Virus record (IMG/VR): IMGVR_UViG_3300013133_000071
Coordinates: 1-23,173 of that record
Source of the DNA: a virus
DNA length: 23,173 bases
Strand: one strand, 5' to 3'
Within the stretch, counting starts at the first letter, position 1; every line of letters begins with the position of its first letter. Below are positions 1,810 through 22,029 of the stretch, piece by piece. The position numbers and the translations under genes were made by a program. Below the pieces are notes generated by a model. That model was not told where the DNA came from, did not search any database, and saw only the letters and a program-made list of their open reading frames with translations.

Positions 1810-3969
1810 ATGCAGACACGAGCAGAAATCTGGTCAGAATTCCAAGAAAACTACCGTTATGCGCATGATTTCTGGTCGCCATTCGTTTCAAACGCGCAAG
1901 TGTATACACTCGCTGCGTCTGGGTATACTTGGAGCCAGAAAGAGCGTCTGCAATTAGACAAAGAAGGCAGGGAACCGCTCGAATTGAATATCATGCGCAG
2001 GCCAATAGAGTTCTTCTCTGGCTATTTGCGCGATAATCTCAATTCAATTGTGTTCGCACCCGTTGAAGGGTCTGATCAAAAAACAGCGGATCAACTCACA
2101 GAACTCTCCTACTATGTTTGGGACAAAGGCGGCGGCTATAACACATACCTAGACTCGTGCGACGAAATGTTCAAGTCCGGCATGTCCCTCACTGGGATCA
2201 TGATGGATTACTCGAAAGACTTCGTGAACGGCGATATCACTTTTTACAAGCGCTGCTACAACCAGTTTTACCTTGATCCCACGTTTGAACGGCTCGATTT
2301 GAGCGACTGCGCCTTCGCAATCATGCGCGATTTACTCGACCGCAATGTCATCAAGCAGCTACTTCCATTTGTCGATCCAAAAGAAATCGACAGCATCCAA
2401 AATGCGTTCAGAGACGACAAATTCCTATCGTATCACCCCAACTTCACGACTTTGAGCCGCAATCGGAACCTGATGGCATACGATCAATATTATCGCCGCA
2501 CAACGCGTACGCGCAAATTCCTAGTCGATGAAGACAATTCCTACTACCGAGACATCTCCCATCTCGATGAAGAAGAAATTCGCACACTGAACATTGGAAT
2601 CCGTCGCGTGAAAGCACTCCGCGAGGAGTTCGAAGCTACTGGGCAAGACGTCTCTTCTTTGCCACCCGTATTGACAATCAGAGACGTCGAGCGCCCGTAC
2701 ATCGAGCTGCATATTATGCTCAACGGACAAGAAGTTTACAACGGGGAAGATCGAACGGGCATCGTTGAGACCTATCCGTTTGTGCCGACGATCTGCTACA
2801 TGGAGCCTTCAATCTGGATGCCTTCTCAGAGGATCCAAGGGATCTCGGCGACACAATGGTCGAACCAGAGGAACTTCAACAAGCGCCACATGAAGATCGT
2901 GGACATGATGGATTCCGACATCTCGACGGGCTACAAGTACATGATCGGCGCTGTGGCAGACCCGCAAGATCTGCAGCAATCGGGTCAAAACAAGCTGATC
3001 GGCATAGATCCCGAGAATGCACCCGCTGGAATGGATTCAGTGCAAGAATTGCGCGGCGGCGGCGCAAATCCGGCCCTCATCGAGTACCAAGCCATCATCG
3101 ACCAGTTGTCTCTCACCTTGGCAAACGTCAATGAATCTGTGCTTGGTATCGATGACAAGGGCAACACTCAAATCAGCGGCAGGCTTGCTCAAGTGCGCAT
3201 CGCGCAGGGTCTACGTTCTAACCGCAAAGTGTTCGACAACATCGAAGTGAGCCAGCAAATCCTCGGAGGATTAGTCGGCAAAGCGATTCAGCTGAACATG
3301 CCTCCTGGAAAAGTGAAGCGCATCCTGGGCGAGGATCCAACCGAGCAGTTCTACAAGCGAGAGTTCGAGCAATACGACGCAGTCATCAAAGAAGGCGTCC
3401 GATCTCAATCTCAGAAAGACGCCTACTACTACGAAATCGTTAACCTCAAGCGAGAAGGCATCGTTGATGTTCCCCAAACCGAAATTATTAAAGCCCTTCG
3501 CATGGCGGGTCTCTCCGATCTGGAAGAAGCTATTGAGCAACAGCAAGCTGCACAGCAACAAGTACAACGAACTGCTGCCCAAATCCAGGGAGCAGAGCTG
3601 GAAGAACTCAACGCTAACAAAGAAGAAAAACTTGCTCTCGCTCAAGAACGACGCGCTAGAGTCCTATCTGATCTCGCGCTCAAAGACGAGAGAGAATCCG
3701 AGGCTCAACAAAACATTGCGCAAGCAGCATTGGACCGAGCTAAGACAATCACTGAAATAGCCAAGATGAATGACGATCGAATCCTCGATGTATTGCAGTT
3801 CGTCAACATGCTTGTGCAGCAAGAAGCATTGGGTCGAGAGGCGCAAAAAGCACAGGTTGAGGCGCAATCCGATCGATTGAACACGGATACTGAGGGATCT
3901 GTGGAGCAAGTCCAGTCGGCAGAGCAAGCTCGAACCGAAGCGGAGTTGTTTGGGTTAAATCCTCAATAA
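1810..3969 (+). CDS. Portal protein, P22-like
   Basis: Forms the dodecameric ring at the capsid vertex through which DNA enters and leaves, and docks the terminase and tail. At 719 aa it is close to the size of the P22 portal (about 725 aa). Its N-terminal and central parts resemble P22-type portals, for example the stretch around FKSGMSLTGIMMDYSKD and NQFYLDPTFERLD, and it directly follows terL. From about residue 560 to 700 it is Gln/Ala/Glu-rich and predicted helical or coiled-coil, matching the long C-terminal helices that make the barrel in P22-type portals. The start has AAGGG about eight bases upstream. I am confident of the family from position and composition, but have run no profile search. 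Confidence 0.88.
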   Translation: MQTRAEIWSEFQENYRYAHDFWSPFVSNAQVYTLAASGYTWSQKERLQLDKEGREPLELNIMRRPIEFFSGYLRDNLNSIVFAPVEGSDQKTADQLTELSYYVWDKGGGYNTYLDSCDEMFKSGMSLTGIMMDYSKDFVNGDITFYKRCYNQFYLDPTFERLDLSDCAFAIMRDLLDRNVIKQLLPFVDPKEIDSIQNAFRDDKFLSYHPNFTTLSRNRNLMAYDQYYRRTTRTRKFLVDEDNSYYRDISHLDEEEIRTLNIGIRRVKALREEFEATGQDVSSLPPVLTIRDVERPYIELHIMLNGQEVYNGEDRTGIVETYPFVPTICYMEPSIWMPSQRIQGISATQWSNQRNFNKRHMKIVDMMDSDISTGYKYMIGAVADPQDLQQSGQNKLIGIDPENAPAGMDSVQELRGGGANPALIEYQAIIDQLSLTLANVNESVLGIDDKGNTQISGRLAQVRIAQGLRSNRKVFDNIEVSQQILGGLVGKAIQLNMPPGKVKRILGEDPTEQFYKREFEQYDAVIKEGVRSQSQKDAYYYEIVNLKREGIVDVPQTEIIKALRMAGLSDLEEAIEQQQAAQQQVQRTAAQIQGAELEELNANKEEKLALAQERRARVLSDLALKDERESEAQQNIAQAALDRAKTITEIAKMNDDRILDVLQFVNMLVQQEALGREAQKAQVEAQSDRLNTDTEGSVEQVQSAEQARTEAELFGLNPQ

Positions 3970-3987
3970 AAAACTATATGATATTAA

Positions 3988-4015
3988 ATACTTTACACCG
4001 TATGGTGTGGAGTAT
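3988..4015 (+). promoter_or_regulatory. 12-bp intercistronic RNA hairpin after portal gene
   Basis: The arms 3988-3999 and 4004-4015 pair over all twelve positions in RNA (two are G-U) around the tetraloop GUAU (4000-4003). The hairpin starts 19 bases after the portal stop and ends before the Shine-Dalgarno AAGGAGG of the next gene. No U-tract follows, so it is more likely an mRNA 3'-end stabiliser, processing site or attenuator than a terminator. The pairing is directly visible; the function is inferred. Confidence 0.5.
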
Positions 4016-4034
4016 AGCCAAAGGAGGCTAAATC

Positions 4035-4247
4035 ATGGGATACGATAAAGCAAAAATGAGCGGCGGAGGAAAGTTTATGGACAATGCAAAAGGCATGTGT
4101 TCCTACAAAGACAATCCGATGAAAGCTGCTCGTCAGGTAAAACCTGAGTGCGGACCAGGCATGAATGCTGACCAAAAGAAGGCAAACGGTTTGCTCCAAA
4201 AAGCACAAAAACAAGTTGATTCACTCCGTGGAATGAGCGGGATGTAA
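4035..4247 (+). CDS. Small hypothetical phage protein
   Basis: A 70-aa protein with a strong Shine-Dalgarno (AAGGAGG) at good spacing before ATG 4035. It is rich in Lys, Gly, Met and Gln. Two cysteines sit in KGMCSYKDNP and KPECGPGMNAD, and the C-terminal half (about residues 44-66) looks helical. I recognise no domain. It lies between portal and scaffold, where phages often encode small head proteins of unknown role. The next gene starts three bases after its stop. Confidence 0.7.
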   Translation: MGYDKAKMSGGGKFMDNAKGMCSYKDNPMKAARQVKPECGPGMNADQKKANGLLQKAQKQVDSLRGMSGM

Positions 4248-4249
4248 TC

Positions 4250-4627
4250 ATGTCGGTGCATGCAATCATCGAAACGCCAGGACTGTTGGTTGATCCAGCA
4301 TTCATTGATGAGAAGGAGTTGCTCAAATTCTATCTCAACAAGGCTATCGAAACGATCGTCATGCAAAACCAAAATAGGACGGAACGTTATTTTGTTATTT
4401 TTCACGAGCGATTCGACGGCGTAGATTCACGCATGAAAATCTCTGTGTCGACCGAATTTCCAGGCCGTATCACCAACACGATTGTCTTCTGGGTGTGCAA
4501 TCGAAGAGGGATATGTGAATGGCTCTGGACAGTTCCTCCTAAAGACCAAAATGGGCATCAGCCCCCAGTAGAGTACAACCTCACAGGTGTCGCCTACCTG
4601 CAAGCAAAGGGCGCTATGCCGAAGTAA
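4250..4627 (+). CDS. Conserved-looking hypothetical protein
   Basis: A 125-aa soluble protein without membrane segments. It has an N-terminal helical stretch (about residues 20-40), then a beta-rich part containing a Trp/Cys segment (FWVCNRRGICEWLWTVP), and ends in TGVAYLQAKGAMPK. I do not recognise the family. The start lies almost directly after the preceding stop and has only a weak ribosome-binding site, so translation probably depends on coupling. Its stop codon lies inside the first of two hairpins before the scaffold gene. Confidence 0.7.
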   Translation: MSVHAIIETPGLLVDPAFIDEKELLKFYLNKAIETIVMQNQNRTERYFVIFHERFDGVDSRMKISVSTEFPGRITNTIVFWVCNRRGICEWLWTVPPKDQNGHQPPVEYNLTGVAYLQAKGAMPK

Positions 4628-4666
4628 GGGGCTTTCCTTACTGCCATCGTGAAAGGCTGTTTCACG
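4623..4666 (+). promoter_or_regulatory. Two adjacent perfect hairpins before scaffold gene
   Basis: Hairpin 1 pairs AGTAAGG (4623-4629) with CCTTACT (4636-4642) around a 6-base loop and includes the stop codon of the preceding gene. Hairpin 2 pairs CGTGAAA (4648-4654) with TTTCACG (4660-4666) around a 5-base loop. Both stems are perfect 7-mers and only five bases separate them. No T-run follows either, and the scaffold start is 17 bases further on. A processing or stabilising element that sets head-protein levels is a plausible inference. Confidence 0.5.
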
Positions 4667-4683
4667 CTAACAACGGGTAAAAG

Positions 4684-5325
4684 ATGAGTGCAGAGACCGT
4701 TCCTGCCGAGAATACAGAGCAAGAGTTGCCGATTCCAGCTCAAGAGCCGATTGCGGCTGAGGATGCTGGTCAAGCGGTTGCTCAAGAACCTCCAAAAGAG
4801 GAACAAGTGCCCCTTTCCGCGCTTCAAAAAGAGCGAAGGAAAAGACAAGACACTGAGCAAGAAGCCAGATGGTACAAAGAACAGCTGATGAGACAGCAAC
4901 AAGCTGCCGCATCTTCTGCTCCTGAGTCAGATGATTCCGATCAAGAGCCTGTTTCTCGAAAAGAGTTAGGAAATGTAAAGAGGCAAGCTGTAAGGGAAGT
5001 TTTAGAGACCACTTGGATCTCGCAGAATCCCGAAAAGGCAGCCGACATAAACGACAAACTATCGGAATTTTTGAAACAAAGACCGCACCTCGCCCGTGCG
5101 ATTGAAGACGCGCCGAATAGATATGAGGAGGCATGGACCTTGATGGATGCTTTAAGCCCAAAGCAAAAAGCCTTACTTAGACCAGCTCCGTTGCCAAAAA
5201 GAGATGCGCCAGGTAATCCTGCAACTCTCCCAAAAGCACACGGATTGAATCAAAGTGTAGATGTCATGGCCATGAGCGATTCAGAATTTAACGCGTGGAG
5301 GCAGTCGCAGCGTAAGCGTAGGTAG
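4684..5325 (+). CDS. Head scaffolding protein
   Basis: Internal scaffold that guides capsid assembly and leaves before or during packaging. The 213-aa protein is Glu/Gln/Lys-rich and mostly helical, with a disordered N-terminus (residues 1-40). VPLSALQKERRKRQ (about 42-56) is typical of phage scaffolds. A helical middle follows, and the basic C-terminal helix ends AMSDSEFNAWRQSQRKRR, like the capsid-binding ends of P22-type scaffolds. It sits directly before the major capsid gene, the usual place. The last codons pair with the leader of the capsid gene (see the hairpin at 5298-5345). Confidence 0.85.
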   Translation: MSAETVPAENTEQELPIPAQEPIAAEDAGQAVAQEPPKEEQVPLSALQKERRKRQDTEQEARWYKEQLMRQQQAAASSAPESDDSDQEPVSRKELGNVKRQAVREVLETTWISQNPEKAADINDKLSEFLKQRPHLARAIEDAPNRYEEAWTLMDALSPKQKALLRPAPLPKRDAPGNPATLPKAHGLNQSVDVMAMSDSEFNAWRQSQRKRR

Positions 5326-5345
5326 GTCGCTAAGGAGACTGCCTC
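5298..5345 (+). promoter_or_regulatory. Inverted repeat overlapping the capsid gene start region
   Basis: A perfect 9-bp inverted repeat joins GAGGCAGTC (5298-5306, last codons of the scaffold gene) to GACTGCCTC (5337-5345). The second arm lies between the Shine-Dalgarno AAGGAG (5332-5337) and the capsid ATG at 5346. The 30-base loop contains the scaffold stop codon. If it folds, the stem would hide the capsid start until ribosomes finish the scaffold gene, which would couple scaffold and capsid synthesis. The repeat is seen directly; the coupling role is inferred. Confidence 0.5.
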
Positions 5346-6278
5346 ATGTCCGTTACAACAACCTCAAACTATGGCTCAATGAGCGATAGATGGGCACAGC
5401 GTGCGTTGCTTCAAAGGAGCAAGCCACGATGCGTCCATAACCTATTTGGTCGGGCGTTTACGCTGCCACAAAAAAACACAGATACCATGGCATTTAGAAG
5501 ACAAGAGAACTTGCCTTCGGATCCAGTGGTTCTATCGCAAGATGCGGATCCCGCACCTGTACAAGTCAACAAATTCGACATCAACGTTACCATCCAAGAA
5601 TTTGGTCAGGTTGTATTGCTTTCTCGCAAAGTTATCCTCGTCGTTGAAGATGACACTGCCAATGAGACAGCTGATAACCTTTCACAAAGCATGCACACCA
5701 TGCTGGATAAGGTAACACGCGATGTTTTCGCAAGTTCTGTCCCACAAATTTCTTGCCTAAACGGGACCAATGGCAACGCGATTACAGAATTAACGATGAT
5801 CGACGTTCAGAGAGCGATCACCTATCTAGACCAAAACGACAGCGAAAAGATGGCGCCTACCATCGAAGGAACTTCGCGTTTTGGAACCGGACCTGTGGAA
5901 CCGGCATACTGGGTAACTGCTCACGTAAAAATGAAGCCAGATATCCGTTCGCTAGACAACTTCGTTCCAACCTCTCAATACGGTTCTCAAGACCCTGTTT
6001 TGCAGGCCGAATTCGGATCCACGGACGAAGCGCGCTGGGTAACTTCTACCCTCGTTACTGTATCGGATGCTAACCCACCCGTTTTTTACAACACATTCAT
6101 AGCCGCTAACGCTTATGGATATGTAGGAATCGACGAAGTGTCAACCGAGATGATCTTGAAGCCGCTTGGATTCAACGACTACCTCAACAGATTTCAGTCC
6201 ATGGGCTTTAGCGCATGGTTCAATGCTGCGATCTTGGATGACTCCCACATCGTAACCCTGCTTTCAACACAAGCGTAA
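5346..6278 (+). CDS. Major capsid protein, N4-gp56-like
   Basis: Builds the icosahedral shell. The 310-aa length and motif order match the N4-gp56 family: an early RALLQRSKP segment followed by VHNLFGRAFTLPQKN, then MAFRRQENLP, then VNKFDINVTIQEFGQVVLLS, and the long helix around DNLSQSMHTMLDKVTRDVF (about residues 106-126). The C-terminal part contains VGIDEVSTEMILKPLGF. It directly follows the scaffold gene. Translation starts at ATG 5346 with AAGGAG upstream, inside a possible regulatory hairpin. High expression is expected. Confidence 0.9.
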   Translation: MSVTTTSNYGSMSDRWAQRALLQRSKPRCVHNLFGRAFTLPQKNTDTMAFRRQENLPSDPVVLSQDADPAPVQVNKFDINVTIQEFGQVVLLSRKVILVVEDDTANETADNLSQSMHTMLDKVTRDVFASSVPQISCLNGTNGNAITELTMIDVQRAITYLDQNDSEKMAPTIEGTSRFGTGPVEPAYWVTAHVKMKPDIRSLDNFVPTSQYGSQDPVLQAEFGSTDEARWVTSTLVTVSDANPPVFYNTFIAANAYGYVGIDEVSTEMILKPLGFNDYLNRFQSMGFSAWFNAAILDDSHIVTLLSTQA

Positions 6279-6293
6279 GCTTAAGGAGACAAC

Positions 6294-7070
6294 ATGGCAG
6301 ATCTATTTTTAGGGCAGACTTGCACCGAAGCCTATCAGTTCATATCGGCTGGTACGGCCCATACTTTCCAGTTTAGCTGGCAGCCTGACAAAGTGGTGTT
6401 TAATAACATCACCAAGTGGGCAGCCACGGCTGGTAACCTTCCGATCTCGGTTTGGTTCCGAAATCAATTGGCAGCAGCACAAGCGAAGCAGATGCAAGTC
6501 ATCGATAGCGCAGCTGCTCAGTCCTTTAACTTTCTGAATACCACCACTAACGGCTTTACTGTAGCCGATTCGCCTGGTGGGGTTCCTGCGTTCCGAGCAT
6601 TGATTGCTGGCGTGACTCAGGCTGATCCTTGTGTTGTAACTACGACTGCAGCGCATGGCTTCCAGTCTGATCAGATCGTTCGCATCACTGACCTTGGCAA
6701 TGTTGGTCCAGGAGTGGCAGCACGTGGTATGGATCCGTTGAACAACAACAGATTCTTGATCACTGTTCTGTCATCCACGACCTTCTCTTTGCGCGATGTC
6801 ATCACAGACGAGCCAATCGATTCTACAAGCTTCCCAGCTTGGGTTTCAGGCGGCCGCTGTGATATCGAGACGCGAGTAATCACGTTGAACAACCCGCAAG
6901 TAGCTCCCTACAGCGCGTTGAATCCTTACAACCCAAACCCATTTGAGTACGACCCAGCTACCTACGCTTTGACTGCAGGCACTGCCGTCATGGGCGCAGA
7001 CGGCGACGTATTCCTCATTGAGGTTTACAAGTGGGGACAGCTGATTGATTTGGGCGACTTGCTCACTTAA
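6294..7070 (+). CDS. Virion protein with FCCH-like beta domain
   Basis: A 258-aa protein with a strong Shine-Dalgarno (TAAGGAG) and ATG at 6294. Residues about 103-189 form a module with DPCVVTTTAAHGF, IVRITDL, a Gly-rich loop, LNNNRFLI and TFSLRD. This resembles the small beta domain annotated as E1-FCCH-like in many phage structural proteins. The flanking N-terminal (1-100) and C-terminal (190-258) parts are not recognised. The same module makes up almost all of the next gene, so the two are paralogous. Position after the capsid gene suggests a head-decoration or head-completion protein. It has no signal peptide. Confidence 0.75.
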   Translation: MADLFLGQTCTEAYQFISAGTAHTFQFSWQPDKVVFNNITKWAATAGNLPISVWFRNQLAAAQAKQMQVIDSAAAQSFNFLNTTTNGFTVADSPGGVPAFRALIAGVTQADPCVVTTTAAHGFQSDQIVRITDLGNVGPGVAARGMDPLNNNRFLITVLSSTTFSLRDVITDEPIDSTSFPAWVSGGRCDIETRVITLNNPQVAPYSALNPYNPNPFEYDPATYALTAGTAVMGADGDVFLIEVYKWGQLIDLGDLLT

Positions 7071-7101
7071 TGGCTCGTCCGCCAAGTGCGGAAGGAGTTT
7101 G

Positions 7102-7131
7102 GGGACTCGTCTAAAACGCGAGTCCCTCTTT
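7102..7131 (+). terminator. Intrinsic-terminator-like hairpin
   Basis: GGGACTCG (7102-7109) pairs perfectly with CGAGTCCC (7119-7126) around a 9-base loop, followed by TCTTT (7127-7131). The stem is GC-rich, but the T-tract is short and interrupted, so termination is probably partial. A smaller hairpin, TCCGC (7078-7082) with GCGGA (7088-7092), lies just upstream. It would reduce read-through from the highly expressed capsid region into downstream tail genes. Alternatively it is an mRNA 3' stabiliser. Confidence 0.6.
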
Positions 7132-7145
7132 AAATGGAGAGAGAA

Positions 7146-7484
7146 ATGTCGGCGATAGGTCAACTGCCCCATAGGGCGGAAATACTCAGTGTAAGTCTCA
7201 GCGATCCTTGCGTCATTACGACGACCGAGGCGCATGGGTTCTCGACCTTCGATTTTATCCGACTCACCAATCTCAACGGGATGATGCCTGTGCCGCAACA
7301 CGGAGCAGACCAACTGAACAACAATCGATACCGAATCATTGTGATAGGAGATGATGCTTTTAAGCTTCAAGACCCCATCACTTTTGAGGACATCGATTCC
7401 ACCAACTTTCCCCCCTATACCGAAGGCGGAAAGGTTAACTTAGTAGAAAACACGTTCTTCTTTTATGGAGAACCAGGAGATTAA
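7146..7484 (+). CDS. FCCH-like single-domain virion protein
   Basis: A 112-aa protein. I prefer ATG 7146 (MSAIGQLPH) because GGAGAG lies just upstream; an in-frame ATG at 7134 would put that site inside the coding region. The whole protein is one beta module of the type seen in the preceding gene. Shared features are DPCVITTTEAHGF, IRLTNL, DQLNNNRYRI, FKLQDPIT and IDSTNFPPY followed by GGK. Gene duplication or domain shuffling between the neighbours is clear at protein level. It is likely a virion component near the head-tail junction; the exact role is unknown. Confidence 0.72.
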   Translation: MSAIGQLPHRAEILSVSLSDPCVITTTEAHGFSTFDFIRLTNLNGMMPVPQHGADQLNNNRYRIIVIGDDAFKLQDPITFEDIDSTNFPPYTEGGKVNLVENTFFFYGEPGD

Positions 7485-7485
7485 T

Positions 7486-7962
7486 ATGGCACGAGTTAAA
7501 AAAACAGAAGAAGAAGCAGCTAAAGAATTGACCACTTCGATGGTACAAAAACCTGAAGAAGTTGACATGGAGGATATGCCTCTTGTGACACTTACAGATT
7601 ATATTCGCTACAACCGAAAAGCGCGCGAACACAACAAGCGCCTAAAAGTTCTCCGCTACCCAATCAAAGTACCACCTACGGAGCTACATCCTCATGAGAG
7701 AGTGGTTTTTACACGGAATGATCAACCATCTAATCCCCTCCCTGTTTACCTATCGAATGACATGATCCATTATGACCGAACAAAGCTTAGAGATCAGCTC
7801 GTTCCAGGCAAAACCTATGACTTGCCTCGCGTAGTAATCCAACATTTAGCTGATCGCGGGACTCCCGTGTGGAAGTGGTTTGACAATGCAGATGGAAGCA
7901 AAGAAACAAGAAAGGCAGGCGTCACACCTCGCTTTTCATTAAGAACAGTATACGCGGACTAA
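7486..7962 (+). CDS. Hypothetical virion-region protein
   Basis: A 158-aa protein. ATG 7486 is favoured over the in-frame ATG 7465 because AGGAG (7475-7479) precedes it at normal spacing and the upstream gene stops at 7484. The N-terminal 35 residues are Lys/Glu-rich and likely disordered. The centre holds KVLRYPIKVPPTELHPHERVVF and later PGKTYDLPRVVIQHLADRG, suggesting a mixed alpha/beta fold. It ends in a basic stretch. I recognise no named family. Its place between capsid-associated and adaptor genes suggests a structural or connector role. Confidence 0.7.
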   Translation: MARVKKTEEEAAKELTTSMVQKPEEVDMEDMPLVTLTDYIRYNRKAREHNKRLKVLRYPIKVPPTELHPHERVVFTRNDQPSNPLPVYLSNDMIHYDRTKLRDQLVPGKTYDLPRVVIQHLADRGTPVWKWFDNADGSKETRKAGVTPRFSLRTVYAD

Positions 7963-7965
7963 AAA

Positions 7966-8658
7966 ATGGCACAGTTTGTCTCTGATTGCTTAAGGACAAT
8001 GCGGCTAGCGCTAAGCCGTCGCAATGAAAACGATCCCGACCAGAACGATCCTACTTTGTTTAGGTACCTCAATGACTTCATCAATCTGACGATGTCTGAC
8101 GATGTGAAGGTCTTTGAGCAGTTTGGGACGCTCTCTTTTACAATCGACGAGTCAAACACCACTGGCGTCTACACCTTCAATGATGTGGGCGCTAGCTCTA
8201 ATTTCACCAATATCTCACAAGAAGCGTTCATCTCTCTTTTAGACCCACCAGACGGATCGATCTCATGGAATCAACTGTGGATATTTCAAAACCCAGGTGA
8301 ATTTTACAGTGAATGGGGCATAAACAACACCGATGTACTGATTCCTGGATATCCCACTCAGATGCTCTACTATGGCAATGAGATGGTTTTTAGAACTATC
8401 CCCAACACCTCTTACTTGGTTCAGATTTATGGATATAAAATCGTTCCTACCTTCTCCGATGAAGGAGACCCTCAGCTCCCATATGATTATTGGATGCGCT
8501 ATTTGGCTTACGGCGCTGCTCGTGATTACGCCGCAGACTATAGGTTTGACGAAGCGTCACTTGCTCGCATTGAGCGAACTTTTCAGAGGCAGAGACGATT
8601 ACTGATGACTAGAACACACAACCAAATCAAACAACAACGTGCAATGCCAAGGTTTTGA
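7966..8658 (+). CDS. Putative head-tail adaptor (P22 gp4 / T7 gp11 analogue)
   Basis: A 230-aa protein in the position where podoviruses encode the ring that joins portal to tail. The N-terminal helical part (about residues 1-60) and C-terminal helices (DYWMRYLAYGAARDYAADYRFDEASLARIERTF, broken here as a helical region at about residues 168-200) surround a beta-rich centre (60-165). The C-terminal DYW...AYGAARDYA...ARIE pattern is typical of tail-tube/adaptor proteins with alternating helices. The call rests on layout and position, not on a profile match. Translation begins three bases after the preceding stop, with no strong ribosome-binding site. Confidence 0.55.
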   Translation: MAQFVSDCLRTMRLALSRRNENDPDQNDPTLFRYLNDFINLTMSDDVKVFEQFGTLSFTIDESNTTGVYTFNDVGASSNFTNISQEAFISLLDPPDGSISWNQLWIFQNPGEFYSEWGINNTDVLIPGYPTQMLYYGNEMVFRTIPNTSYLVQIYGYKIVPTFSDEGDPQLPYDYWMRYLAYGAARDYAADYRFDEASLARIERTFQRQRRLLMTRTHNQIKQQRAMPRF

Positions 8659-8660
8659 CG

Positions 8661-8939
8661 ATGAAAAAAATTAAGATATCAAAATCCCAGAAAGTCTCGC
8701 CAAAAGAAGCCTCTAAAATGCGAAAACGTGAAGGCGGCTCCAACGTAGGGAAATATAAAAATGTTCCTAAAGGAGACTTTGCAGGACCAAGTGGTGGTGC
8801 TCCATCGGGAAGCTTTCCTATCCCCACGCTCACCAAGGCAAAATCAGCTTTAAAACTGGCTCATAATGCCCCTAATCCAGCAGGCATTAAAGCCCAAGTA
8901 TATAAAAAATATCCTCAACTCAAAAAGAAAGGAAAATAG
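8661..8939 (+). CDS. Small basic phage protein with FPIPTLxxAKSAL motif
   Basis: A 92-aa protein starting at ATG 8661; an in-frame TTG at 8655 overlaps the previous stop and is less likely. It is very Lys-rich. A central motif reads GDFAGPSGGAPSGSFPIP, followed by LTKAKSALKLAHNAPNPAG and ending in KAQVYKKYPQLKKK. This arrangement recalls short phage domains with an YPIPDKAHARAALARAAQ-like stretch (I believe DUF6582-like), where the Ala-rich helix pairs with a terminal VxxKYP. The function is unknown; packaged DNA binding or head maturation are possibilities. Confidence 0.65.
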   Translation: MKKIKISKSQKVSPKEASKMRKREGGSNVGKYKNVPKGDFAGPSGGAPSGSFPIPTLTKAKSALKLAHNAPNPAGIKAQVYKKYPQLKKKGK

Positions 8940-8941
8940 CC

Positions 8942-9121
8942 ATGCCACTGGTCAAAGGAAAAAGTGAAAAAGACATCCGACAAAACATAGAGACGGAAAT
9001 GAAAGTAGGCGGCCGCCCACGCAAGCAAGCAGTGGCCATCGCTCTGAATGAAGCTAAAAAATCAGGATACAAACCAAAGAAAAAAGGCTCTAAGAAGAAA
9101 ATGGGCCGAGGGAAGTGCTAA
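8942..9121 (+). CDS. 59-aa basic protein, DUF6496-like
   Basis: A very short gene with AAGGA upstream of ATG 8942. The N-terminus MPLVKGKSEKDIRQNIETEM followed by GGRPRKQAVAIALNEAKKSG matches a family of tiny phage proteins (I believe catalogued as DUF6496) that usually begin MPL.KGKS and contain a KQAVAIAL helix. The C-terminal twenty residues are almost all Lys, Gly, Ser and Arg. Its stop overlaps the next ATG (TAATG at 9119-9123), indicating coupled translation. No biochemical role is established that I know of; nucleic-acid binding is likely from charge. Confidence 0.75.
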   Translation: MPLVKGKSEKDIRQNIETEMKVGGRPRKQAVAIALNEAKKSGYKPKKKGSKKKMGRGKC

Positions 9122-9450
9122 TGAAAAAACAAAGCGGTCGCAGCCGGATGGATGAATCTCTCGGCGAGCGTAGAGGAAAAGAGTCTAAAAAGAAGCAAAG
9201 CTATAAGGCTCGAAGAGATGAGTCAGACGCTATGGTTCGCTCTAAGAAATTATCTAAGCCAGGGAAAATGGTTTCAGGAAAAAAGTTCTCAAAAGCTTTG
9301 GAGGACTACGATGAAAAAATCGGCATGGAGTCTAACCATCCTGCTCTTAAACCTGCGGATATTTCAGGCGCATTTAGCCGCGCTCAAAAGAAAATGGGAT
9401 ATTCAAAAAAACCAAGAGTAAAGCCTAATCGCGTAGGCAAGGGAAAGTAA
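9121..9450 (+). CDS. Highly basic hypothetical phage protein
   Basis: A 109-aa protein, start at ATG 9121 overlapping the preceding stop, with GAGGGAAG upstream. An in-frame GTG at 9115 is a weaker alternative. Lys, Arg and Ser dominate. The N-terminus contains GRSRMDESLGERRGKE and a second, similar SYKARRDESDAM segment, possibly an internal repeat of an (R)xDES motif. The C-terminus ends KPRVKPNRVGKGK. It is probably disordered and may bind DNA. This is the third basic small protein in a row. No family is recognised with certainty. Confidence 0.65.
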   Translation: MKKQSGRSRMDESLGERRGKESKKKQSYKARRDESDAMVRSKKLSKPGKMVSGKKFSKALEDYDEKIGMESNHPALKPADISGAFSRAQKKMGYSKKPRVKPNRVGKGK

Positions 9451-16453: not shown

Positions 16454-16680
16454 TATTTGTCCTCGATCGCGTCTCTGATTTCTTGAAGTTTCATAGAGAT
16501 GATGGCGGTGTTAAAATCAGTCGCCATGACTTTAGCGAGTTCAATTGCATCCGAAACTTTATATGGCATCTCATGCTTGTCCAGGATATCGATAGCCGAT
16601 CCTAGATAATCATCGGCTGTCATTCTAGCCTGTGAAAATGCGTTCTCAATGGTGATAAGAACCTCTCTACTCACGACCAA
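16453..16680 (-). CDS. Small acidic helical hypothetical protein
   Basis: A 75-aa, all-helical, acidic protein containing REVLITIENAFSQARMTADD and a second helix around VSDAIELAKVMATDFN, ending EIRDAIEDK. It has no cysteines or membrane segment. It overlaps the recombinase gene by ten bases and the next gene by one, so all three should be co-translated. No family is recognised. A partner or modulator of a neighbour is possible from the tight coupling. Confidence 0.6.
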   Translation of the reverse strand: MVVSREVLITIENAFSQARMTADDYLGSAIDILDKHEMPYKVSDAIELAKVMATDFNTAIISMKLQEIRDAIEDK

Positions 16681-17381
16681 CTCCTCTTTATAGGATGCGC
16701 GGTTTTAATGCCGTGCGCTCTCAAGGCGCGCCAGACACTATCATGCGTCCAGAGTTTATTTTTTCTATTTAGAAGACCCAATTTATTCATTTCCTGGGCT
16801 ATATCAGCCATGAAAACACCTTTCGATCGAAGTTCTTTCATCTTTTCGAGATGCGGAATGCAAGCAGGATTAATGACGAGTTTTTTATCCGGTCCAACCA
16901 TAAAGCCGAACCTCAAAGAACCAGCTCTTTCTCCTCTGGCTTTCTTTGCTGCTAGAGCGGACTTGATGCGAACGCGCGTAATGTCTCTTTCAAAAGCCGC
17001 TACCACGCGGAACATGTCCCTCATCATTTTCGCACCAGGATCAGCGCTATCCGTGCCTTCACCTGCGGCTGAAACAATCCTAGATTTTTTATCTCTAATC
17101 ATCTCTTCAATAAGCAGTGCCCCATAAAGATCTCGAGACAAGCGATCCAATCTAGACACAAGCAAGACTGAATCTGGTTCCAAGGAGCAAATAGCATTAA
17201 AAAGAGCAGGGCGTTTATCTAGTGGAGCGGCTCCGCTAATGGCTTTTTCTACAAATGAGTGATGAATCTCAAAACCATTTTTTTGAGCCCATTGCTTGCA
17301 GATATCCTCTTGAGCAGATAGTCCCGCGCCGCTTTCAATTTGCATTTCGGTAGAAACTCGATAATAGGCGATTACTTTCAT
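16671..17381 (-). CDS. Small serine recombinase (resolvase/invertase family)
   Basis: A 236-aa site-specific DNA recombinase. The catalytic fold is clear: MKVIAYYRVST places R8 and the nucleophile S10, and SRLDRLSRD gives D79, R80 and R83. A segment at about residues 95-140 (GTDSADPGAKMMRDMFRVVAAFERD, then an E-helix-like RIKSALAAKKARG) completes the resolvase domain. The C-terminal part (about 145-236) ends in a helix-turn-helix-like region (MADIAQEMNKLGLLNRKNK, then THDSVWRALRAHGI). It is too short to be a large serine integrase. It might move or invert the cassette or switch tail-fibre genes, but I saw no long inverted repeats flanking a gene. It starts with an ATGA overlap. Confidence 0.9.
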   Translation of the reverse strand: MKVIAYYRVSTEMQIESGAGLSAQEDICKQWAQKNGFEIHHSFVEKAISGAAPLDKRPALFNAICSLEPDSVLLVSRLDRLSRDLYGALLIEEMIRDKKSRIVSAAGEGTDSADPGAKMMRDMFRVVAAFERDITRVRIKSALAAKKARGERAGSLRFGFMVGPDKKLVINPACIPHLEKMKELRSKGVFMADIAQEMNKLGLLNRKNKLWTHDSVWRALRAHGIKTAHPIKRSWS

Positions 17382-20145: not shown

Positions 20146-22029
20146 ATGCCTAAGTTTGCTCGTCCCAACATGTATAACGGTCGTCAATCGAACCAAGCTT
20201 GGACAGGATCGGTCCGAGCAGCTAATCCCAGCGAAGCAGCCGCTGGCGATAGCGAACAGCTTTACATCAGCCCTGCAACACTCGCTGGAGCGGTACAAGC
20301 TTTAGTCCCTCACGCATCTGATACAGAGTATGGGATTGTTGTTTTGACAGACGATAGCGAGCCAGTGGCAACAAAGGTCTATGTCGATAACATCGCAATT
20401 GCTGGTGCCCCCGATTGGTCTGAAAGCGTCAAGGGGATTGGAGAGCTTTCAACGCAGGCTGAAGCTATAGCTGGAACAAATGATGATACGGCGATGACAC
20501 CACTTAAAGTCGCTCAAGTTTTTGCGGGTGGTACGGTTTCTCCCTCTTTTACAAACGTCCTCATTTCGGGCACTCTCGGTGTCACGGGCCTTACATCTCT
20601 CAACGGCTCGGCTACCGTTGTAACTGGGGCCACGGCTCTTAATTTAGGGGCAGATGCGGGGACAGGAGCGGTAAACATCGGAACTGGCGCAGCGGCGCGA
20701 ACCATTACGATGGGGAATATCTCGGGTGCGACGGCTCTTGCTTTGAACTCGGGAACGGGCGGAATTGCTCTCGTAAGCACCACTTCGGGCGATATCACCA
20801 TAGCGTCAGCAGACACTTGCTTAATCGACTGCGCTGGCGTTTTAGAGCTGAACTCGTCTGCAGGAGTGATCGGCATTGGTAATGATGCCGTCGCTCAAAA
20901 CATCAATATCGGTACAGGTGCAGCTGCTAGAACGATCACCGTGGGAAATGCCTCTGGAGCCACATCGGTGGTTATCAATGCAGGTACTGGCCCCATTGAA
21001 ATTGGAGCGAATGCAATAGCCCATAGCATCACTGTAGGAAATGACGTTGGAGCTACAGCTATCGTCTTAGAAGTAGGAACAGGAAACTTCGTCGTCGATG
21101 GAGTAGGAGCCTCTGAATATGAAATTGGGGCATCTACAACTACTGGAACTATTTTAATCGGCGGAACAGCGCAAACTGGAGCTATCACTCTAGGCAGCTC
21201 AAGCGGCACTAACGCAGTTAATATTGGCGTTGGAGCTGGAGCTACCACGGTTAACATCGCCACTGGAGCTACCAATGCAAAGGCCGTTAACATAGGTACT
21301 GGAGCTGTTGCAAACGTCATCGCAGTAGGATCTTCGTCCGCTGGTGCAATCACTGTAGATACAGCTGCAGGAGTGTCTGTAGATGGCGCGACCGCTTCCA
21401 ACTTCACAGTAACCGGAGCAGGCCAAGACCTAACGCTGGCGTCTGTTGGAGGTTCCGTTAAAATCAACTCCACTGAAAATGCGGCAGGCGCCATCGCTCT
21501 TTCAGCAAACGGAGGCACTTCCGAGACTATCACCATTGCAGCTGCTCAAGGTACTGGTGCCGCCTCGATTGGAATCTCATCTACAGCCGGAGGAGTTACA
21601 ATTTCGGGCGGTCTAGCCACAGCTGATGCGATCAATCTTTCCGCTGCGGCGGGCGGTGTAGATGTTGATGGTGCGCTCCAAATCAACATCGCCTCTTCTC
21701 AAGCCGCTGCGAATGCTATCGCACTGGTAGCTTCCGACGCTGGGGGTGGAATCACTATTGCGGTTGGAACTGGCGGAGTAGGTATTACGGGTGCCGTGGA
21801 TATAAGTCTAGATGCTCGATGCAGAACTATTTTTGCAGACGGCGACGAAGGAACTGGGATTGCTACAACTACAGCCATGACAAATGGAACAGAAACCACA
21901 CAGGGAGCTGGAGAACTAACTATTGTCTCTACAAACGCAAACAATGGAGACAACGCAGGTTTCTTGAAGTTCTATGTGGGTGCTAGCGTTGTATGGGTTC
22001 CTTACTTCACCAACATTGCACCAAGCTAA
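20146..22029 (+). CDS. Tail fibre, repeat-rich beta-structured protein
   Basis: A 627-aa virion protein that probably contacts the host surface. The N-terminal part (residues about 1-125) carries ATLAGAVQALVPHASDTEYG, VVLTDD and GIGELSTQAEAIAGT followed by DDTAMTPLKVAQVF, a linker type common at the head-proximal end of tail fibres. From about 165 to 600 it is a low-complexity Gly/Ala/Thr/Ile/Val repeat region (NIGTGAAARTITxGN-type units) that should form a beta-helix-like shaft. The end reads DNAGFLKFYVGASVVWVPYF, a small C-terminal tip. No chaperone domain is seen. AAGGTG precedes ATG 20146. Confidence 0.8.
   Translation: MPKFARPNMYNGRQSNQAWTGSVRAANPSEAAAGDSEQLYISPATLAGAVQALVPHASDTEYGIVVLTDDSEPVATKVYVDNIAIAGAPDWSESVKGIGELSTQAEAIAGTNDDTAMTPLKVAQVFAGGTVSPSFTNVLISGTLGVTGLTSLNGSATVVTGATALNLGADAGTGAVNIGTGAAARTITMGNISGATALALNSGTGGIALVSTTSGDITIASADTCLIDCAGVLELNSSAGVIGIGNDAVAQNINIGTGAAARTITVGNASGATSVVINAGTGPIEIGANAIAHSITVGNDVGATAIVLEVGTGNFVVDGVGASEYEIGASTTTGTILIGGTAQTGAITLGSSSGTNAVNIGVGAGATTVNIATGATNAKAVNIGTGAVANVIAVGSSSAGAITVDTAAGVSVDGATASNFTVTGAGQDLTLASVGGSVKINSTENAAGAIALSANGGTSETITIAAAQGTGAASIGISSTAGGVTISGGLATADAINLSAAAGGVDVDGALQINIASSQAAANAIALVASDAGGGITIAVGTGGVGITGAVDISLDARCRTIFADGDEGTGIATTTAMTNGTETTQGAGELTIVSTNANNGDNAGFLKFYVGASVVWVPYFTNIAPS
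20671..21330 (+). repeat. In-gene degenerate repeats in tail fibre
   Basis: Imperfect protein repeats are visible: NIGTGAAARTITMGNISGAT (from residue 177) and NIGTGAAARTITVGNASGAT (from residue 254), 77 residues apart, with weaker units such as AHSITVGNDVGATAIVL and AVNIGTGAVANVIAVGSSS between and after. DNA copies have diverged at third positions, so they are old or selected. They probably build repeated turns of a fibre shaft. Confidence 0.7.

Follow-up and report, generated by a model that had tools for sequence, protein, structure and literature searches.

Translational coupling by RNA unfolding is known from phages, genes VII and IX of phage f1 being an example (PMC12548453, in the sections consulted). 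As those sections present it, structure lies near the downstream initiation site, the upstream gene runs into this structure, and the upstream ribosome opens it. Late structural genes of a podovirus provide a further case: from gene 10 to gene 11 of phage T7, coupling has been inferred from structured start sites, and it runs from the capsid to downstream genes, with no scaffold-to-capsid coupling described in the part of that paper used here (PMC5592923). Coupling hairpins are of a known kind; in the literature searched (titles and abstract openings), coupling at a phage scaffold-capsid border has no apparent description. Heads assemble only when scaffold and capsid are made in proportion, and if the borders of a head operon carry RNA switches, the phage family described here would be a clean system for translational control of capsid assembly.

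The locus lies in a window of 23,173 nt, by which we mean the whole stretch of viral DNA that was analyzed. Its scaffold-capsid junction is like that of f1 in that structure is found near the downstream initiation site and the upstream gene runs into it, and we propose that here, too, the upstream ribosome would open the structure. Unlike f1, for which the consulted sections give a spacing of −4 nt and a long hairpin, the gaps here are nearly all 11–31 nt (one is 7), the hairpins are short and clade-specific, and the coupling is predicted. The features of the head operon and of this junction are as follows:

1810–3969, plus strand: P22-like portal gene (PF16510, E = 1.1e-42), giving the operon context
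4250–4627, plus strand: small conserved gene of 125 aa that precedes the scaffold, ending ...YLQAKGAMPK*
4684–5325, plus strand: putative scaffold gene, 213 aa, with an Arg-rich C-terminal tail AWRQSQRKRR; assigned from position only
5298–5306, plus strand: 5′ arm of the reported stem, GAGGCAGTC, within codons A-W-R-Q-S of the scaffold tail
5317–5348, plus strand: competing local hairpin, CGUAGGUAG.g.UC / GA.CUGCCU.c.AUG, E = −8.9
5323–5325, plus strand: scaffold stop codon TAG, 20 nt before the capsid ATG at 5346
5332–5337, plus strand: capsid Shine-Dalgarno (SD) AAGGAG, from the sequence
5337–5345, plus strand: 3′ arm of the reported stem, GACTGCCTC, comprising the last SD base and the SD-ATG spacer
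5346–6278, plus strand: major capsid protein gene, 310 aa (phrog_1357 major head protein, E = 8.3e-27)

The 213-aa ORF is a putative scaffold gene by virtue of its place, immediately upstream of the capsid gene and downstream of the portal. Neither PHROG nor Pfam offers a match for its product, the PDB none that is credible, and no known scaffold matches it by sequence or profile. In the profile comparison the PHROG hits are few and weak, and hhalign against three candidate scaffolds gave no match. The PDB search returned three RecA fusion chains at low E-values, in which no single stretch passes by itself and which were set aside as repeats of a short match, and a further two hits that are both marginal. 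In StenR_269, a distant relative whose capsid is similar, a gene annotated as scaffolding protein stands upstream of the capsid gene, the two being separated by an endonuclease gene. The tail of the putative scaffold is basic across the family, with a mean of 5.3 Arg/Lys in the last 10 residues of 90 distinct tails, and 86 of these tails have a Trp within the last 15 residues. The 125-aa gene that precedes the scaffold has no family match in PHROG or Pfam.

A preliminary description of this DNA had pointed to a perfect 9-bp inverted repeat tying the last scaffold codons to the stretch between the capsid SD and its ATG, and had suggested that ribosomes ending at the scaffold stop would open the stem and so link capsid production to scaffold production. 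The repeat is exact at these positions, and its arms, separated by 30 nt, do join codons near the putative scaffold end to the SD-ATG stretch; the 3′ arm begins at the last G of the SD and stops one base short of the ATG. Folding the RNA of 5280–5360, the check that had been proposed, favors the stem, at −26.1 kcal/mol (z = −2.38; 5 of 200 shuffles matched it). In each of three folded stretches, seven of its nine pairs have probabilities of 0.96–1.0 and the two outermost pairs 0.57–0.93, and the stem dominates the folding ensemble at the window's scaffold-capsid junction. Opening the SD-ATG stretch of the capsid costs 13.0 kcal/mol, the second highest value among 15 starts in the window.

Such a stem may be a chance pairing between codons fixed by the protein (the W-R-x-S tail) and a drifting SD-ATG spacer, with no role at all, a reading that we regard as rather unlikely but worth serious weight. 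It accords with the frequency of such repeats: with loops of 3–60 nt, the window holds 6 perfect 9-mer inverted repeats against 6.6 ± 3.2 in 200 shuffles, and there is no window-wide excess, as 114 of the 200 hold at least as many. It accords less well with the strongly favored fold or with the location of the stem, exactly on the initiation region; when the stretch from the SD to ATG+6 was shuffled against the window's own scaffold end, at least nine pairs were obtained in 9 of 5000 cases. Among 20 starts compared, the capsid start has the longest run (9), followed by the start at 7134 (8). Because many starts could have shown such a run, the 9-bp stem taken on sequence alone is only mildly surprising, and the case it makes is not compelling.

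Relatives were gathered by capsid-based searches of IMG/VR, which supplied the best 80 each of 161, 107, 165 and 150 confirmed stretches, by a scaffold-based search (16 related stretches) and from GTDB genomes (2). From 298 sequences, 23 without a capsid hit and 6 without a usable start or upstream DNA were dropped; the remaining sequences overlap, many being the same contig twice, and they reduce to 95 distinct scaffold-capsid junctions, which form 69 clusters at 85% identity. The preliminary description had looked to compensatory changes in the two arms among related phages as the decisive observation, and here its expectation fails. The nearest distinct relatives of the window, L003, L004 and L006, alter one arm only: L003 and L004 (98% capsid identity) retain the 5′ arm GAGGCAGTC intact and carry GACTACCTC as the 3′ arm, giving a C-A mismatch, and L006 likewise retains the 5′ arm and carries GACTACTTC, giving a C-A plus a G-U. 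The 3′ arm is also altered in L005 and L008, and the full 9-bp stem is absent in L005, L007, L008, L010, L011 and L016. The junctions of L001 and L002 are identical to that of the window and provide no independent confirmation. The 5′-arm codons are retained in relatives without the 3′ arm, as a chance pairing with protein-fixed codons would have it.

Counts over pairs lead to the same place. In nine sequences, the window included, 69.7% of the cells of the 9-bp stem are paired; its covariation is not significant (score 0.142 versus 0.131 shuffled, with 146 of 500 as high), and two-sided changes occur in 2 cells versus 0.7 in shuffles (71 of 500). Across the 69 clusters, Watson-Crick runs of this type have a mean maximum length of 3.41, versus 3.33 with partners swapped (347 of 2000), and a run of 9 bp is reached by the window's cluster only, which again suits chance pairing. 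The one-arm changes, the null covariation and the swap-level pairing rule out the reported stem as a conserved element. With the 9-bp run confined to a single cluster, these comparisons of sequence indicate that the exact stem is private to the window's lineage.

A stem private to one lineage might still be a working coupling device that has newly evolved there. We consider this improbable, even though the inner pairs are near-certain in folding, the cost of opening the SD-ATG stretch is high and, judged from coordinates, the two arms would flank a terminating ribosome: the two junctions that share the stem are identical to the window and lend no independent support, and the perfect stem is already missing in the nearest distinct relatives. 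Among 14 distant phage records, a 7-bp stem of like shape, with the stop in its loop, is found in the four of Bacillus Pagevirus, and by eye none such is seen in the other 10. The Pagevirus stem, a candidate predicted by folding, joins the final codons of the gene that precedes the capsid gene to the capsid SD; it lies just before 2423 in L299 (Bacillus phage Pascal) and just before 1123 in L300–L302, and the four records amount to two distinct junction sequences (L299; L300–L302).

The 3′ arm of the reported stem has a nearer partner in the window, CGUAGGUAG.g.UC at 5317–5328, which contains the scaffold stop. The resulting local hairpin has the stop UAG in its 5′ arm and the start codon in its 3′ arm, with the SD mostly in the loop. 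In L003 and L006, the substitution that disrupts the reported stem converts a U-G of the local hairpin to U-A. In nine sequences 80.9% of its cells are paired, with covariation that is not significant (114 of 500), and against shuffles that keep the SD its p value is 0.2; as an individually significant element, the window's local hairpin is thus unsupported. Its probability is 0.00–0.03 against the longer stem, which wins static folding.

The picture is different when the local hairpins of the family are considered together. Two of the 69 clusters, in which the SD begins before the end of the stop, were dropped from local folding, and the 67 tested fall into 47 long-gap clusters, with at least 16 nt between stop and start, and 20 short-gap clusters. 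The long-gap clusters have a mean local energy of −5.11 kcal/mol versus −2.74 in SD-keeping shuffles, and 15 of the 47 reach p ≤ 0.05 (14 on a rerun). When right halves were swapped between long-gap clusters, stability was lost: 2 of 5000 permutations reached as low an energy. Thinned to one sequence per <90% capsid identity (n = 30), the set gives 17 of 5000 in the swap, and p ≤ 0.05 is reached in 10 of 30. Combined by Fisher's method the long-gap p values give 2e-12, and by Stouffer's 1.0, the latter because unstructured rows (E = 0) have p = 1. A hairpin inherited from an ancestor by descent alone could contribute to the swap signal.

No such signal is seen at the other junctions compared. 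As a control, 45 clusters of other short-gap junctions from the same loci, 17 of them pre-scaffold junctions, show p ≤ 0.05 in 2 of 45 (Mann-Whitney p = 2e-4) and no swap signal (3797 of 5000). The 20 short-gap scaffold-capsid clusters are similarly silent, with p ≤ 0.05 in 1 and a swap value of 684 of 5000. Counted by locus, 26 of the 59 long-gap junctions reach p ≤ 0.1, as do 6 of the 34 with a short gap. Structure that is beyond chance and co-varies, as expected for RNA unfolding, is seen in the long-gap junctions as a group and not in the short-gap ones. The structure also falls where RNA unfolding would need it, over the downstream SD or start, in the window and in all 27 of the folded long-gap clusters (27 of 47 have a local E ≤ −4), the SD being in or inside the stem in each; at least two bases of the ATG are paired in 12 of the 27. 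The pairing itself changes from clade to clade: UCUCCA/UGGAGA in L061 gives way to UCUUCU/AGGAGA in L049 and L050, and to GGU.CUUCC/GGAAG..ACC, with the stop in the outer stem, in L119 and L123. That the same spot carries other hairpins in other clades also argues against a pairing by chance. These sequences indicate that, at long-gap junctions, the capsid SD region tends to be held within a short local hairpin that adjoins or contains the scaffold stop. The notion that a stop-codon hairpin occurs at every gene border finds no support at the capsid-to-next-gene junction, where no common hairpin is seen by eye in the 69 cluster representatives.

We propose, with moderate confidence, that capsid translation is coupled to translation of the putative scaffold through a junction hairpin, in the RNA-unfolding form. 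In this model an mRNA hairpin anchored where the putative scaffold gene ends would hold the capsid ribosome-binding site. With the scaffold untranslated, the SD-to-ATG stretch would be paired and capsid initiation would be poor; a ribosome finishing the scaffold gene would cover or unwind the 5′ arm and free the capsid site. The selected trait would be a structured region ending at the scaffold stop, rather than any particular stem, and each clade would have its own local hairpin, in which the stop or the bases just after it pair with the SD or the SD-ATG spacer. In the window, the 3′ arm would pair even better with the last scaffold codons, yielding the reported stem by happenstance. We infer that such coupling would have a role in setting the scaffold-to-capsid ratio. 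What survives of the original interpretation is that the capsid start region is structured, as it is in the long-gap junctions of the family; the exact 9-bp stem on which it was built is not conserved.

Given the size of its footprint, a terminating ribosome would by coordinates lie between or on the arms of the stem. With this footprint masked at the stop, opening the rest costs 12.8 kcal/mol, a figure that we set aside, since the folding program still permits the stem to close around the masked footprint; with the mask on the last sense codons, the cost is 7.7 kcal/mol. Structure just after a stop can also reduce coupling (PMC12548453, in the sections consulted), and the junction hairpin may act in either direction. 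The SD hairpins could be real and yet serve something other than coupling, such as the binding of a regulatory protein or the setting of a basal rate of capsid initiation. The register and sequence of the hairpins vary by clade, as partial masking of the SD predicts, but in 15 of the 27 folded long-gap clusters the stem takes in two or more bases of the stop codon, which points to an upstream ribosome and makes this alternative a doubtful one.

From the control junctions came a second and stronger element, the hairpin H1, which immediately precedes the scaffold gene, typically with 7 bp and a GGCUA or GGCUG loop. In the window it is accompanied by a similar hairpin, so that two stand in tandem before the scaffold gene (4623–4666):

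4623–4642, plus strand: second, similar hairpin, AGUAAGGG GCUU UCCUUACU, enclosing the stop UAA (4625–4627) of the preceding gene
4648–4666, plus strand: hairpin H1, CGUGAAA GGCUG UUUCACG, 17 nt upstream of the scaffold ATG (28.8 bits with covariance model R1, E = 1.7e-4)

At the second hairpin, the covariance model gives a weak hit only (4614–4641, 12 bits, E = 2.9). For the survey of H1, 11 of the 95 loci lacking the upstream anchor were left out, leaving 84, and 5 of these without a clear scaffold start were excluded from the strict count, leaving 79. By the strict rule, a 6–7 bp stem with a loop of 4–6 starting GG, H1 is present in 57 of the 79 loci, or 55 of 77 distinct regions, compared with a shuffle mean of 1.4 and a maximum of 5 in 20 rounds. 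Pre-scaffold stems of at least 7 bp occur in 57 of the 77 regions versus 10.5 shuffled. If the rule is relaxed to accept the best stem of at least 5 bp in each of the 79 loci, the 3′ end is 15–22 nt from the ATG in 65 of them; in 68, the preceding gene has the start of its stop codon inside the hairpin.

The pairs of H1 were counted in 41 distinct sequences anchored on the M[PAS][ST]* end of the preceding gene and chosen independently of pairing; 24 of the 84 loci do not end in this way and were left out. Paired cells make up 87.7%, versus 72.3% shuffled, and 52 cells are changed on both sides, versus 18.5 shuffled (0 of 500) and at most 13 when the alignment is slid. Counted by pair, 5 show a two-sided change, no more than shuffles give (268 of 500), since the columns vary so much. 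With the loop fixed at 5 nt, TGA is opposite TCA in 12 of the 41 sequences and TAA opposite TTA in 10, and most of the others have a different loop length. On a capsid-gene tree of 95 rows, the minimum number of changes for the 48 in-register H1 rows is 10 at pair 4 (A-U/G-C) and 16 at pair 6, though rows were kept only at 6 or more of 7 pairs, so the absence of broken pairs is partly by construction. H1 persists where the stop has moved (L013, L029 and L248); hence from these sequences the hairpin, rather than the stop codon, seems to be under selection.

The covariance model finds a pre-scaffold match at E < 0.05 in 53 of 67 sources, many of which also helped build the model, with no match elsewhere at that level; the match is missing in L003 and 13 others. 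Exactly one match at E < 1e-3 is found in 16 of 20 virus records of 30–41 kb, three of these having a second, weak match (E = 0.01–0.03); two further records have a weak match only and two have none. Two distant named phages gave one hit, with E = 0.22. Rfam yields nothing at the gathering score, whether for the window or for 7 related loci, and nothing at E ≤ 5 for window positions 3900–6400, and the literature searched on structured RNA at phage stop codons contains no apparent description of H1. So far as Rfam 15 and these literature searches reach, H1 appears to be undescribed. The fold of 4600–4700 has a z of +0.74 despite the strong covariation of H1, which makes fold z-scores weak evidence either way at this locus.

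An intrinsic terminator is rejected, as no U-tract follows H1 or the junction stem and the terminator scan lists no plus-strand site in 4000–9200. A conserved hairpin at a narrow distance before the scaffold start is what would be expected of a translational operator, and we propose that H1 controls scaffold translation. H1 leaves the scaffold SD uncovered, so the mechanism would not be simple masking. H1 might serve as an autoregulatory operator of the scaffold, insulate against reinitiation from the gene before it, or stabilize the mRNA; with low confidence, we rank the operator first. Wyckoff and Casjens reportedly described, in 1985, autoregulation of the P22 scaffolding protein gene, a study cited in PMC5744158. 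As a precedent this makes H1 a candidate operator, and the parallel is that both are scaffold genes in phages with a P22-like portal, binding of H1 by the scaffold being hypothetical. The coat operator of RNA phage MS2 and the boxB of lambda N are small hairpins of ∼15–20 nt that pair with a structural or a regulatory protein, boxB being bound by an Arg-rich peptide; H1 is like them in size and different in loop and stem.

A fuller scheme, which we put forward as a long shot, links the two controls. H1 (7 bp, a GGCUR pentaloop, one strong copy per record) would be the operator for free scaffold, recognized through the conserved Trp/Arg-rich tail D-x-EF-x-A-WR-x-SKR-x-RR that would also be the capsid-binding end; unengaged scaffold would shut off its own translation, and the junction hairpin would relay that level to the capsid by coupling. 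H1 is a covarying RNA without an Rfam match in the sequences searched, and it lies beside a protein tail that resembles RNA-binding ones, so autogenous control is directly testable. If the operator reading is true, H1 would offer a concrete RNA target for assembly-sensing scaffold control in tailed phages.

Several other features of the window and its relatives were recorded. A perfect 8-bp stem (GGGACTCG/CGAGTCCC, 9-nt loop) followed by TCTTT lies at 7102–7126, after the gene at 6294–7070, and is not among the sites of the window's terminator scan; in L046 a GC-rich stretch and then a long T run follow the equivalent gene. Capsid relatives L124 and L125 come from contigs that binning assigns to a Bacteroidales MAG and a Parcubacteria MAG, an assignment that is a putative hint of the host. 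A serine recombinase (PF00239) is encoded on the minus strand at 16671–17381, in an oppositely oriented block of small ORFs, and this block may indicate a temperate phage. Finally, positions 20146–22029 encode a 627-aa protein with many degenerate repeats around 'GTGAAARTITMG' and no Pfam match, which is perhaps a tail fiber shaft.
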